Program-made: the position numbers and the translations under genes | Assembly (NCBI RefSeq): GCF_029589435.1 | Contig: NZ_JARRAG010000002.1 | Span: forward strand, 558,001 to 622,000 | Direction of reading: 5' to 3' | Length of the DNA: 64,000 nt | Source: Paludisphaera mucosa | GTDB lineage: Bacteria > Planctomycetota > Planctomycetia > Isosphaerales > Isosphaeraceae | In this document: positions 33,787 to 40,240 of the stretch, one piece after another | How positions within the stretch are numbered: the stretch's first letter is position 1 | Layout: each line of letters starts with the position of its first letter | Notes under the pieces: generated by a model | Databases searched by the model: none | Seen by the model: only the letters and a program-made list of their open reading frames with translations | What the model was told of the DNA's origin: nothing

Positions 33787-35427
33787 ATGGTCGGCTTGCG
33801 GGAGTTGGAGAGGCCGGTCGGGCGGGTCTTCCGGCGGCTGCGGTTCCAGCGCTTCCTGGGGGCGACGGTCTGGGCGTGGGCCGGGGCCTTCCTGGCGGCG
33901 GCGGCGGCGATCGCCGCGTTCAAGGTCCTGAACCGGCCCCTCCCCTGCCCCGACTGGGTCCCGTTCGCCGCGGCGGCGGGCGCGGGGCTGCTGATCGCGG
34001 CCCTGGTCGCGATCCTGACCGGCCCCAGCCGGCTCGACGCGGCGACGGCCCTCGACCGGGCGTTCCACCTCCACGAGCGGGTCAGCTCGGCCCTGACCCT
34101 GCCCGACGACTTCCGCGACACCCCCGCCGGCCGGGCCCTCGTGGCCGACGCCATCCGCCGGGTCGAGGCGCTCGACGTGGCCTCGGCGTTCGGCTTCAAG
34201 CTGCCGAGGCGCGCCTGGGTGGCCGCGGCCCCGGCCCTGCTCGCCTTCGGCCTGCTCTTCGTGCCGGGCTGGGCCCCGGGCTCGGTCCGCGCGGCGTCGC
34301 CGTCGAAGGCCGTCGACCCCAAGGCCGTCGCCAGGCAGAGCGAAACGCTGGCCAAGAAGGTCGCCGCCAAGCGCGAGGCGATCGACAAGGAGAAGTTCCC
34401 CGAGGCCGAGAACATCCTGGCCGAGATCGAGAAGAAGTCGAACGAGCTGGGCAAGGCCCCGCCGGCGCAGAAGGACAAGCTGCTGGTCGAGATGAACAAG
34501 CTCAGCGACGCCCTCAAGGACCGCCAGAAGCAGCTCGGCACGCCCGAGCAGATCGCCAAGCAGCTCCAGCAGCTCAAGGACATGGGCGAGAAGGGCCCGA
34601 TGGATCAGCTCGCCAAGGATCTGGCCCGCGGCGATTTCGCCAAGGCCATGGAGCAGGTCAAGGAGCTGCAGGAGAAGCTCAAGTCCGACAAGCTCACCGC
34701 GGCCGAGAAGAAGGCGCTCGAGAAGCAGCTCGGCGAGGCCGCCAAGAAGCTCTCGGAGGTCGCCAACATGGCCGACCGCAAGAAGCAGCTCGACGAGGCC
34801 CGCAAGAACGGCGGCCTGAACCAGGAGCAGTACGAGCGCGAGGTCGAGAAGCTCAAGCAGCAGGCCAAGAACCTCCAGCAGCTCCAGAAGCTCGCCGAGA
34901 AGCTGGGCCAGGCCCAGCAGGCCATGCAGAAGGGCGAGTCCAAGCAGGCCGCCGAGGCCATGGGCGAGGCCCGGCAGCAGCTCGCCGACATGGCCAAGAA
35001 CGCCGAGGAGATGCAGGCGCTCGACGACGCCCTGGCCGAGGTCATGGACGCCAAGAACGGCATGGCCGAGGGCCTGAACCAGCTCGGCGAGGGCCTGCCC
35101 GGCATGAACGACATGTTCTCGAACCGCCGGAGCAACAACAACAACGGGTCCGGCCGGGGCCGCGGCGCCGGCGACCGCGCCGAGGCGGCCGACGACACGG
35201 CCACGTTCAAGACCAAGACCGACCAGCAGATCCAGAAGGGCAAGGCCGTCTTCCAGGGCTTCGGCGAGCCCGGCAAGGCCGTCAAGGGCGAGGCCCGCAT
35301 CAACATCCAGGCCGAGCTCGAGGCCGCCTCCGGCGGCGCGGCCGACGCCCTCTCGAACCAGCGGATCCCCAAGAGCCTGGAGAAGCACGTCCGGTCTTAT
35401 TACGATCAGCTCAACAAGGGGCGGTGA
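33787..35427 (+). CDS. membrane protein with long coiled coil (DUF4175-like N-terminus)
   Basis: Two or three N-terminal hydrophobic segments (FLGATVWAWAGAFLAAAAAI, FAAAAGAGLLIAALVAILTG) are followed by LDAATALDRAFHLHERVSSA and another helix near residue 145, an arrangement resembling DUF4175-type proteins that accompany MoxR clusters. Residues ~175-430 are an unbroken Lys/Gln/Glu/Ala coiled coil, then an Asn/Gly linker and a short C-terminal domain. The cluster proper ends at 28541, five kilobases away, so the link is by analogy. The ATG at 33787 has GGGG upstream. It is likely an envelope scaffold. Confidence 0.85.
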   Translation: MVGLRELERPVGRVFRRLRFQRFLGATVWAWAGAFLAAAAAIAAFKVLNRPLPCPDWVPFAAAAGAGLLIAALVAILTGPSRLDAATALDRAFHLHERVSSALTLPDDFRDTPAGRALVADAIRRVEALDVASAFGFKLPRRAWVAAAPALLAFGLLFVPGWAPGSVRAASPSKAVDPKAVARQSETLAKKVAAKREAIDKEKFPEAENILAEIEKKSNELGKAPPAQKDKLLVEMNKLSDALKDRQKQLGTPEQIAKQLQQLKDMGEKGPMDQLAKDLARGDFAKAMEQVKELQEKLKSDKLTAAEKKALEKQLGEAAKKLSEVANMADRKKQLDEARKNGGLNQEQYEREVEKLKQQAKNLQQLQKLAEKLGQAQQAMQKGESKQAAEAMGEARQQLADMAKNAEEMQALDDALAEVMDAKNGMAEGLNQLGEGLPGMNDMFSNRRSNNNNGSGRGRGAGDRAEAADDTATFKTKTDQQIQKGKAVFQGFGEPGKAVKGEARINIQAELEAASGGAADALSNQRIPKSLEKHVRSYYDQLNKGR

Positions 35428-36883: not shown

Positions 36884-37384
36884 ATGGAAGCGATCGACAA
36901 GTACATCGAGCGGCTGGACGACCCCGCCGTCCGCGCCTGGCACCGCAAACTGAACCACGTCGGCGAGGCCGGCCCGATGACCGACGACGGGACGCGGGCC
37001 ACCGAGAAGCTCGTCGCCGCCGCCGAGCAGGCGCTGGGCGTCCCCCTGCCGCCGAGCTACAAGAAGCTGGTCACGACCACCGAGCCTTACGACAACTTCC
37101 CGATCTACTGGGTCCTCGGCCCGGACGTCTTCGGCGGCGACATCGTCTCGATCAACGACCCGGCGCTGAAGGCTTCCCCGCCGTTCCTGATCCAGCTCGT
37201 CGACCCCGGCGACGGGGACGAGTACTGCTTCGACACCCGCAGCCCCGACGGCCGGGGCGAGTATCCGATCGTCCGCTTCGACCACGAGGTCCACGACGAG
37301 GAGAGCACCGACTTCGAGGCGGTGGCGAAGGACCTGGGCGAGTTCCTCCTGGGGTCGCTCCCGGGGCCGGGGTCGGCCGCCTGA
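36884..37384 (+). CDS. SMI1/KNR4 (SUKH) family protein, 166 aa
   Basis: The SUKH-type pattern is visible: TEKLVAAAEQALGVPLPPSY followed by KKLVTTT near residues 40-65, then DVFGGDIVSIND and a late GEYPIVRFDHEVHDEE. SUKH proteins are often immunity proteins for secreted toxins, but many stand alone in planctomycetes. No toxin gene is adjacent; the downstream neighbour is convergent and encodes a diadenylate-cyclase-domain protein. GAGG lies before the ATG. An immunity role is not supported here. Confidence 0.85.
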   Translation: MEAIDKYIERLDDPAVRAWHRKLNHVGEAGPMTDDGTRATEKLVAAAEQALGVPLPPSYKKLVTTTEPYDNFPIYWVLGPDVFGGDIVSINDPALKASPPFLIQLVDPGDGDEYCFDTRSPDGRGEYPIVRFDHEVHDEESTDFEAVAKDLGEFLLGSLPGPGSAA

Positions 37385-37406: not shown

Positions 37407-38306
37407 TCAGAGCCCGTCGGCGTGGCGGCCGCGGGGCTTCTGGATGTCGAGGATCATCCGGCCCCGCTTGAAGATCGAGACCGTGCCGGTGGACTGCGAG
37501 ACGCAGACCGAGATCGCCTCGGTGGTCACGGTGATCGCCGCGCCGGCCTCGTGGCGGGCCCCCAGGCCCTGGGGGAGCGGCTCCTCGAGCTTGCCGCGGG
37601 GGGCCAGGTACCGCGCGGCGCAGAGGACCACGCCGTCGCCCCGGATGATGTAGGCGCCGTCCACGGCCGAGAACTCCTTGATCGTCTCCTCGAGCCGGGG
37701 GTCGAGGATGTTCCGCTCCTCCTCGGGGTAGCCGTGGAAGGGGTTGAACACCAGTTGATGGCTCTGGGAGAGGACCCGCTCGCAGTCGCCCACGACGAAG
37801 AGCGCGCCGACGGGGCGGCCCTCGCGGCCCTCGACCCCCAGCTCGCTGGCGACGTTGAGGATCCGCTCGAAGACCGCCGGGCTGACGTCGGGGGGCAGCG
37901 GGTCGGCCGCGCCGGCGGAGAAGAGCTCGATCTCGGTCCCCATGTCCAGGACCATGATCGTGTCCAGCGACCCCGAGCGGTCGACGCCGGTCAGGCAGAG
38001 GATCCGGTCGCCGGCGTGCACCAGGTCCTCGGCGGCGGCGACGAGGGTGGCCACCTTCACCTGCCCGGCGCGGGTCATGGCGATGTCGGGGAGCTGGACG
38101 ACGCGGCAGACGTCGCGCAGCTCCTCGGGCAGGGTGAAGTCGCACCGCCGCGAGACCAGGATGATCCGGAAGTTGACGTCCTCGATCAGGGCGTTGAGGT
38201 CCGCGTCCTCCTCGATGACGTCGGCGTGGAGCAGCACGACCCGCGCGCCGACCTCGCGGGCGATCGCGTGGGCGTGTCGGACCATGCTGCGCGTGAGCAT
38301 CTTCAT
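37407..38306 (-). CDS. DisA_N-type diadenylate cyclase domain protein (DacZ-like)
   Basis: Residues ~205-299 match the DAC (DisA_N) domain: AVDGAYIIRGDGVVLCAARY carries the DGA motif, and GLGARHEAGAAIT corresponds to the G-(T/A)-RH-R motif, with Glu in place of the usual second Arg. Then come VCVSQSTGTVSIFKRGRMI residues. The N-terminal ~150 residues resemble a pyruvate-kinase C-terminal-like Rossmann domain (ARVVLLHADVIEED, FRIILVSRRCDF), the layout of archaeal DacZ enzymes. It would make c-di-AMP from two ATP if active; the RHE substitution leaves this open. The start is ATG 38306 without a strong ribosome site. Confidence 0.82.
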   Translation of the reverse strand: MKMLTRSMVRHAHAIAREVGARVVLLHADVIEEDADLNALIEDVNFRIILVSRRCDFTLPEELRDVCRVVQLPDIAMTRAGQVKVATLVAAAEDLVHAGDRILCLTGVDRSGSLDTIMVLDMGTEIELFSAGAADPLPPDVSPAVFERILNVASELGVEGREGRPVGALFVVGDCERVLSQSHQLVFNPFHGYPEEERNILDPRLEETIKEFSAVDGAYIIRGDGVVLCAARYLAPRGKLEEPLPQGLGARHEAGAAITVTTEAISVCVSQSTGTVSIFKRGRMILDIQKPRGRHADGL

Positions 38307-38365: not shown

Positions 38366-40240
38366 TCAGGGCCGAGGGGGTGCCGGCGCGGCCGCGGGGC
38401 CGGCGTCGGCCCGGGGGGCGCCCGCCGCGGCGAATTCGATCGCCACGCCCAGGATCCCCATGTCGTCGTACTCGGTCGGGCTCGCCGCCAGCCCCGTCTG
38501 CTCGATGCGCAGGACGTGGGGCCCGGGGCGCAGGGCGTCGGCCGGGATCGGCACGCGGATCCGCTCGGGCGACTCGTTGGAGCCGGCGACGTGGCGGTTG
38601 AGGTAGTCGACCCGCCGGCCGTCGATCGCGACGTAGGTCTTCAGCTCGCCGCGGCGGATGTTCTCCGAGAACGCCAGGCCCGTCGCCTCGCCGACGACCC
38701 CGAGCACGTCGAGGACGACGAACGCCGGGCCCGCGCCGGCGTCGGCCGGGACGACGAACGGCCGCTCGAGCACGCCCCCCTCGGGCATCGGCGGGTCGAG
38801 CAGCGGGGGCTTGGAGAAGAACTCGTTCCCCAGGTGGTGGGCGCAGGGGTCGACGACCAGGCGGAGGCCGGGCTCCGCGACGCGGATCCGGACGAGGCGG
38901 TCGCGCGGGATCGTCAGGGTCCCGGCGAAGGGGGTCGCCAGGGTGAGGGCGGCGTCGGTGAGGGCCGTGACGGCGCCCTCGGCGAAGTCGGCGGCGCGGC
39001 CCGGCTCGTCGCCGCCGGCCCGCCACTCGACCCGCGCCAGGGCCCCGGCGACGGGGGCGCCCGCGGCCGGGGCGCGGCGGAAGAAGAGGCCGGCGAGGTC
39101 CTTCCAGTCGAGCGCGAGCGGGCGGTCGTCGACGAGCATCTCGACGCGGTCGCGATCGCCGCGGCGGACCGTGCCGTAGAACTGGTCGCCGACCACCAGG
39201 CGGGCCTCGTCCTGGGTCGGGTCGATCTCCAGGCTGGAGGCGACCGGCGCGAACCGGGCCGCCTGGATCGCGCCGACGTAGCCGCCCGGCCCGGCGTCCT
39301 TCGTCGGCTCGCCGACCGTGGCGACCCGGATCGATTCCAGCGGGCCGGCCGGCCCCCGGCCGTGGGCGAGGTCCTTGCCGTCGACCGAGACCTCGGTGCG
39401 GTCGCCGCCGAACCGGATCGACAGCCGCCGCCAGCCGTCGGTGCGCGCGAGCCGCTGGACGGGGAGCGCCGGGCCGTCGGGGGCCTCGACCGCCAGGCTC
39501 TCCTCGGCCCAGCCCAGCAGCACGCGGAGGTCCGCCGGCCCCCCCGGCGCGCGGAAGGTCAGCGTGAGCGTCCAGCGCTGGCCGGGGCGGACGACGCCGT
39601 CGTCGCGGAAGGTCAGGTCGACCCGCCCGGACTCGATCGGCTCTTCGAACCGGCGCTCGATCGACGACCCCCCGGGCGGCAGGAGCACGGCGGTCTCGCC
39701 CCCCTCGGCCACCGCGCGGGGCTGGCCGACGACGCCCCAGGCGGCCGCGTCGAGCGCGTCGAAGCCGTCGGCGAGGACCCGCGCCTCGCCCAGCCGCTGC
39801 ACCAGCGACTGGACGCCCGGCCGCCGCACGACGACGTCGACGGCCTGCCAGGGGACGGCCAGCGTCACGGCGTCCTCGGCGATCGCCCGCAGCGTCCCGG
39901 AGATCCGCCCGGACTCGCCCAGGCCGGCCTGGAACAGCGGCGGGACCGTCGTCGCCGGCGGCGGGCCGGGCGCGAAGCCGACCACCCCGCCGGGGCCGAC
40001 CGCCCGCACCTGCGCCGGGGCGCCCGACTCGCCGGCCGATTGGAACCGGAAACCGGCCTGGGGGTCGAACAGCAGCCGGCCCTCGACGGTGGGCCCGCCG
40101 GGACGTTCGAGGCGGTCGGGGCCGGGCCCGTCGGCCCGCGCGCGCAGGGGCGCGGCGGCGGCCGCCCCGCAGGCCGCCAGGGCGACGACGAGGGGCCGGA
40201 GGGGCGCGAGTCCGGGCCGGGCTGCCGGGTGGAGTCTCAT
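38366..40240 (-). CDS. secreted hypothetical protein, 624 aa
   Basis: An N-terminal signal peptide (LRPLVVALAACGAAAAAPLR) is followed by beta-rich domains. Residues ~165-310 resemble a concanavalin-like sugar- or protein-binding fold (GFDALDAAAWGVVGQPRAVA, RWTLTLTFRAPGG). Residues ~470-600 look like an NPCBM-type carbohydrate-binding module (LGNEFFSKPPLLDPPMPEGG, VFVVPAD-like core, ELKTYVAIDGRRVDYLNRHV). No catalytic motif is seen. It is probably a periplasmic or surface polysaccharide-binding protein. It is divergent from the PIG-L gene and precedes the DAC gene on the same strand by 59 bases. Confidence 0.8.
   Translation of the reverse strand: MRLHPAARPGLAPLRPLVVALAACGAAAAAPLRARADGPGPDRLERPGGPTVEGRLLFDPQAGFRFQSAGESGAPAQVRAVGPGGVVGFAPGPPPATTVPPLFQAGLGESGRISGTLRAIAEDAVTLAVPWQAVDVVVRRPGVQSLVQRLGEARVLADGFDALDAAAWGVVGQPRAVAEGGETAVLLPPGGSSIERRFEEPIESGRVDLTFRDDGVVRPGQRWTLTLTFRAPGGPADLRVLLGWAEESLAVEAPDGPALPVQRLARTDGWRRLSIRFGGDRTEVSVDGKDLAHGRGPAGPLESIRVATVGEPTKDAGPGGYVGAIQAARFAPVASSLEIDPTQDEARLVVGDQFYGTVRRGDRDRVEMLVDDRPLALDWKDLAGLFFRRAPAAGAPVAGALARVEWRAGGDEPGRAADFAEGAVTALTDAALTLATPFAGTLTIPRDRLVRIRVAEPGLRLVVDPCAHHLGNEFFSKPPLLDPPMPEGGVLERPFVVPADAGAGPAFVVLDVLGVVGEATGLAFSENIRRGELKTYVAIDGRRVDYLNRHVAGSNESPERIRVPIPADALRPGPHVLRIEQTGLAASPTEYDDMGILGVAIEFAAAGAPRADAGPAAAPAPPRP

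Follow-up and report, generated by a model that had tools for sequence, protein, structure and literature searches.

A DacZ-class protein carrying an RHE motif in Isosphaeraceae planctomycetes is probably an active c-di-AMP synthase

Introduction

The diadenylate cyclases DacZ of Haloferax volcanii and CdaZ of Methanocaldococcus jannaschii have both been shown to be active. In each, a pyruvate-kinase-C-like N-terminal domain is followed by a DAC domain with a DGA motif, an architecture described by Braun et al. 2019 (PMC6741144). The available part of that paper also reports that H. volcanii DacZ makes c-di-AMP with manganese only, and its tree of the DacZ/CdaZ group included proteins of Isosphaera pallida, Planctomicrobium and Rhodopirellula.

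A description of the ATP site exists for CdaA of Listeria monocytogenes. According to the accessible text of PMC7288161, it comprises ten residues altogether: Leu31, Asp71, Thr102, Arg103, His104, Ser122 and Glu124 make contacts through their side chains, and Leu88, Gly101 and Glu123 through their main chains. Within the GxRHRxA motif, the phosphate ligands listed there include Thr102, Arg103 and His104, and the Arg in third position of RHR is absent from the list. For Staphylococcus aureus DacA, PMC6368335 names Asp176, Gly177, Tyr192 and the Thr preceding RHR as contacts. In Mycobacterium tuberculosis DisA, the DGA and RHR residues touch base and ribose, and the excerpt of PMC3900455 does not separate the three RHR residues, so that the third Arg may have a role in this enzyme. 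As far as the retrieved sections go, the RHR mutants reported (PMC3328451, PMC4568413, PMC13022847) had all three residues changed together to AAA, and therefore say nothing on the third residue alone.

Here we describe a planctomycete protein in which this third residue is Glu. Our literature search for RHE together with diadenylate cyclase returned no paper and no assayed RHE protein. A second search, combining planctomycete with c-di-AMP or diadenylate cyclase, gave none about planctomycete DACs, as judged by titles and the beginnings of abstracts.

Results

Domains and fold of the RHE protein

The window, that is the whole stretch of 64,000 nucleotides analysed, corresponds to G000:C2:558001-622000 in the numbering of its own genome, Paludisphaera mucosa. 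The gene of interest and its parts are as follows.

37407..38306, (-): dacZ-type gene, RHE form, 299 aa (ATG at 38306, stop at 37407)
37923..38294, (-): DacZ_P domain, residues 5-128 (Pfam PF21755, E=2e-22)
37458..37838, (-): DAC catalytic domain, residues 157-283 (Pfam PF02457, E=7e-20)
37653..37661, (-): DGA, D216-G217-A218; D216 aligns with the ribose-binding Asp71 of L. monocytogenes CdaA
37548..37559, (-): A250-R251-H252-E253, the RHE motif
37491..37499, (-): S270-Q271-S272, counterpart of CdaA SEE, by alignment to CdaA

Numbered from Met, the full motif reads G249-A250-R251-H252-E253-A254-G255, and the E253 codon is GAG (37548-37550). The ORF, the DGA and the GARHEAG motif thus stand as the preliminary description had them. 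Its two domain assignments, a DAC-type C-terminal part and a Rossmann-like N-terminal half resembling DacZ, were likewise borne out, both by the Pfam matches and by structure comparison (VIA-align) of a predicted model with a mean pLDDT of 86. Model residues 1-128 adopt the fold of the pyruvate kinase C-terminal domain (Z 15.2 to 5ws9 residues 347-472, rmsd 2.4, 120 aligned), and the C-terminal part, about 132-291, matches CdaA 8c4n (Z 15.5) and DisA 9y4s (Z 15.0).

Among NCBIfam models the best for this protein is DacZ (NF041371, a haloarchaeal equivalog), at 138.4 bits against a curated cut-off of 430. It further differs from the archaeal proteins in its third motif residue, and in its N-domain, which is DacZ_P whereas that of a haloarchaeal DacZ is Pfam DACZ_N. 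The features that define DacZ/CdaZ are nevertheless all present: the pyruvate-kinase-C-fold N-domain, the DAC domain, DGA and Arg-His. RHR-type DACs (DisA, CdaA, CdaS) have Arg third in the motif; here Glu253 is found instead.

A total of 71 relatives were found in other genomes, at 37-94% identity over the best segment, the closest named one being from Paludisphaera soli (94%). Within the family Isosphaeraceae (group f1, 45 genomes, hereafter the family), 32/45 genomes, the window's own counted, have an RHE ortholog, one of them (G017) cut by a contig end. Because of these relatives and orthologs we regard the gene as real. Its sequence makes it very probably a soluble diadenylate cyclase of the DacZ/CdaZ class, with predicted activity.

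Residues of the ATP site

CdaA (L. monocytogenes, B. subtilis) and DisA share with the RHE protein the DAC fold, the DGA, the Arg-His pair and the Ser. CdaA has RHR and SEE where the RHE protein has RHE and SQS, and the N-terminal half of the RHE protein is DacZ_P rather than a transmembrane part. Nine of the ten CdaA ATP-site residues fall inside the alignment. Six are kept (in CdaA numbering D71, L88, G101, R103, H104 and S122, corresponding to D216, L234, G249, R251, H252 and S270), and three differ: T102, the main-chain contact E123, and E124. The tenth, L31, lies outside the alignment and could be matched by motif only, GALI in CdaA and GALF in the RHE protein.

At the T102 position the window protein has A250, and the 56 RHE rows divide into 42 with Thr and 14 with Ala. 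The metal-binding Glu124 is replaced by S272, and Ser occupies this position in 131/131 aligned rows, as do D216, G217, R251, H252 and S270 their own, while residue 253 varies between clades; this alignment dropped rows shorter than 240 aa (L029, L066, L068, L070-L074, L147), and four RHW copies, read by eye after the pattern had missed them, are outside it. In the 56 RHE rows, near-copies included, D216, G217, R251, H252 and S270 are invariant. Judged by these alignments, A250 and S272 are larger departures from CdaA than E253, yet each recurs widely across the class.

The third motif residue in the DacZ class

Across 165 distinct DacZ-class sequences Trp is the commonest third residue (80), ahead of Glu (32), Ile (16), Ala (10) and Gln (9); Arg occurs in 7, and Val, Thr, His, Leu or Ser make up the other 11. 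Distinct sequences were used, 165 out of 195 rows, because family rows L077-L108 and L147 repeat rows among L004-L029. These sequences, like the family RHE and RHW rows, had been selected by a pattern demanding R-H, so the invariance of R-H in that count is partly built in. R-H was present in every readable copy, namely 70 of the 71 relatives (L074 is cut short) and 60/60 sequences from other families of the class. In 26 of the 70 relatives (L004-L029, some from the same genomes as the family copies) the third residue is E, and the remaining 44 show I, L, V, A, T or R. The 60 sequences, hand-picked among the matches listed, with the weakest matches outside, gave W in 45, Q in 9, A in 3, E in 2, S in 1 and R in none.

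Besides the window's own copy, E was found in all 31 family copies fetched (32/32 Isosphaeraceae copies read in total), which rules out a sequencing error or an isolated mutation. The two copies fetched from family f4 have RHE as well. A quick tree computed from 91 rows showed at least 13 changes of the third letter, in a clustered manner, and placed the 32 family RHE rows in a single group (SH-aLRT 97%); it included 18/35 RHW rows and 7 RHE rows from the family, excluded the third-residue column, and came with a long-branch warning.

The preliminary description had taken GARHEAG as the replacement of a phosphate-binding Arg by Glu. Judged by the available evidence, this does not hold: the third Arg is not among the CdaA ligands listed in the available text of PMC7288161, both R251 and H252 are kept, and Arg is rare at the position in the DacZ class (7/165). 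E253 would rather be a variant fixed within this lineage, at a place where the class as a whole is variable, and it would not point to a lost function.

Other letters were observed elsewhere in the class. Two plasmid-borne Haladaptatus DacZ proteins, scoring 449.8 and 441.8 against the cut-off of 430 bits, have RHH. In family f2, ten long-frame DacZ proteins (L156-L165, open frames of 456-485 aa) have RHQ in nine cases and RHS in one, and the RHQ protein is the only PF02457 match in a single-contig genome of that family (G089).

Two DacZ paralogs in Isosphaeraceae

A second DacZ is encoded elsewhere in the same genome.

C2:2687276-2688121: RHW DacZ paralog, DacZ_P and DAC domains

This RHW paralog of Planctomycetia resembles the RHE protein in its DacZ_P and DAC domains, its DGA and the conserved R-H. 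It differs by Trp in place of Glu, by Asp in place of Asn188, and by its position in a separate clade. All 39 family copies of the second DacZ that were fetched have Trp at the third position. Both paralogs are found in 26/45 family genomes, own genome included, RHE without an intact RHW in 6/45, RHW without RHE in 13/45, and neither in 0/45. Independence would predict about 1.7 genomes lacking both, a weak deviation that we do not count as proof. The mildly new finding is this pairing in 26/45 Isosphaeraceae genomes, the one paralog being invariably RHE and the other invariably RHW.

Genomes with a single DAC protein

A PF02457 match exists in 45/45 family genomes. The RHE protein is the only such match in six genomes, four from the family, G005 (99% complete), G024 (92%), G025 (68%) and G027 (77%), and two from family f4, G047 (94%, single contig) and G052 (92%). 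Two further RHE genomes without an intact RHW hold a second match, a weak DAC-like protein in G006 and a short fragment in G026. RHW, in the same way, is the only DAC match in G012. The 45-genome PF02457 search missed weak matches (a third DAC-like protein in the own genome, and second ones in G022 and G006); the claim of a single DAC rests on smaller PF02457 searches, which exclude G006.

The product of such an enzyme would be degraded by a PgpH-type phosphodiesterase. The preliminary description had proposed looking for a phosphodiesterase gene in the genome, and one was found: the PgpH-like protein of the own genome has its extracellular, 7TM and HD domains all present. A 7TM-7TMR_HD match occurs in 44/45 family genomes, a count that may also miss weak matches given the behaviour of the 45-genome searches, and in G047 and G052 as well. 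Five of the six genomes with RHE as only DAC match have one, the exception being G027. Where a genome encodes a single DAC-domain protein beside a c-di-AMP phosphodiesterase, that protein is most likely the source of the c-di-AMP, and in these five genomes it is the RHE protein.

As to receptors, the own genome gave no match to the ydaO riboswitch, TrkA_C or CdAMP_rec PF06153, those looked for. TrkA_C was found in 36/45 family genomes, a count open to the same loss of weak matches.

Gene neighbourhood

Three genes around dacZ were considered.

38366..40240, (-): partner gene upstream of dacZ; its 624-aa product is beta-rich and predicted to be secreted
33787..35427, (+): convergent flanking gene, 546 aa, conserved, no Pfam match; marks the locus in RHE-lacking genomes
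36884..37384, (+): SMI1/KNR4 (SUKH) family member, immediately downstream of dacZ

The partner protein matched no family in the Pfam search and had no confident sequence match. Its N-terminus resembles a signal peptide by eye. Its model (pLDDT 84) consists almost entirely of beta structure and contains a GH16/concanavalin-like jelly roll at residues about 150-332 (Z up to 17.4). In all 23 loci whose DNA reaches that far (L005-L027; L004 and L029 are too short), the partner directly precedes dacZ on the same strand; the gap between them ranges from -4 to 159 bases, and in 7/23 the two overlap by 4 bases. In L028, whose RHE protein falls outside the family group on the tree, the partner gene was not matched. 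Counted by family genomes, the partner adjoins the RHE gene in 30/32, and in the two exceptions, G017 and G030, dacZ is at a contig end.

Of the 13 family genomes without the RHE gene, 12 carry the partner gene too, some copies being diverged or partial. In three of the five loci read among these (G022, G039, G041) it adjoins the convergent flanking gene, the open frames of the two lying about 36-58 bases apart. Since the two are neighbours in RHE-lacking loci, dacZ came or went cleanly at this site. In G040 partner and flanking gene are about 880 bases apart, with no DacZ match between them, and the stretch examined in G012 gave no match to the flanking gene.

The SMI1/KNR4 neighbour was matched only in L004 among the 71 loci searched. 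Members of this family are often linked to toxin immunity. L028 comes from a planctomycete that falls outside the family group; there the RHE DacZ gene is followed, as next gene downstream, by one for a tandem universal stress protein with two Usp stretches (L028:6948-7730). A domain of the Usp type binds c-di-AMP in S. aureus KdpD, according to PMC4686210.

Discussion

Taken on its sequence, the RHE protein is most probably an ordinary, active c-di-AMP synthase rather than a degenerate sensor. By analogy with the DAC family, two protomers would sit face to face, each with one ATP bound, and a divalent-metal-dependent reaction would couple the two nucleotides to c-di-AMP. The ribose would be held by D216 and the phosphates by R251, H252 and S270; these positions are given by alignment, and the roles are carried over from CdaA. 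For the pyruvate-kinase-like N-domain, sensing of a cellular signal is the probable role. In 26/45 family genomes, own included, the RHW protein would act as a parallel synthase. Counted against activity are A250 in place of the phosphate-binding Thr, Ser in place of the metal-binding Glu124, the lack of a receptor match among those looked for in the own genome, and the second PF02457 match of G006 and G026. Of the "atypical c-di-AMP synthase" envisaged in the preliminary description, we would keep the synthase and drop the atypical, as the third residue appears to vary by lineage across the whole class.

The protein might be an active cyclase with a changed preference for substrate, product or metal, of which the third residue would be a part. 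The fixed and differing residues of coexisting RHE and RHW paralogs suggest a functional separation, and the Ser at the metal-binding Glu position in 131/131 rows would also fit a changed preference. However, the DGA that contacts the ribose and the GAL motif look conserved, and H. volcanii DacZ does make c-di-AMP, with manganese only (PMC6741144, available part). We hold this for quite unlikely.

Loss of catalysis, the protein serving as a sensor of c-di-AMP or ATP, had been the other suggestion of the preliminary description. Both A250 and the third-position Glu depart from CdaA, and the RHW paralog of the own genome could supply the c-di-AMP. Yet D216, G217, R251, H252 and S270 are invariant in the 56 RHE rows (near-copies included), and the sensor is disfavoured because in six genomes no other PF02457 match accompanies RHE, five of these genomes having a PgpH-type phosphodiesterase; it seems very improbable to us. 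That the RHE protein is a regulatory partner in heteromers with RHW, as their joint presence in 26/45 genomes could suggest, is hardly credible, for each occurs alone (RHE without intact RHW in 6/45, RHW without RHE in 13/45).

One could imagine, as a long shot, that the third motif residue is a clade-locked switch which holds coexisting DacZ paralogs apart, RHE and RHW only self-pairing head-to-head and feeding separate signals into c-di-AMP, one of them tied to the secreted glycan-binding-like protein. Were this true, the "RHR" rule of the literature would cover only some DAC classes. The variation seen here also suggests that papers which, in their accessible parts, give RHR as a general DAC motif (such as PMC4568413 and PMC7288161) cover only some classes. 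A non-Arg third residue should not serve to call DacZ-class proteins inactive, and two differently marked DacZ paralogs in one lineage offer a natural test of the position.

A third DAC-like protein of about 500 aa is encoded in the own genome (G000:C2:282218-282652, L003), with relatives L222 and L224-L233. It keeps the DGA, and has GART[LV]A for GxRHxA, the His being changed to Thr in 12/13 sequences (for the 13th, the reading frame used was wrong). On its motifs, it appears a better candidate than the RHE protein for a degenerate, sensing DAC.
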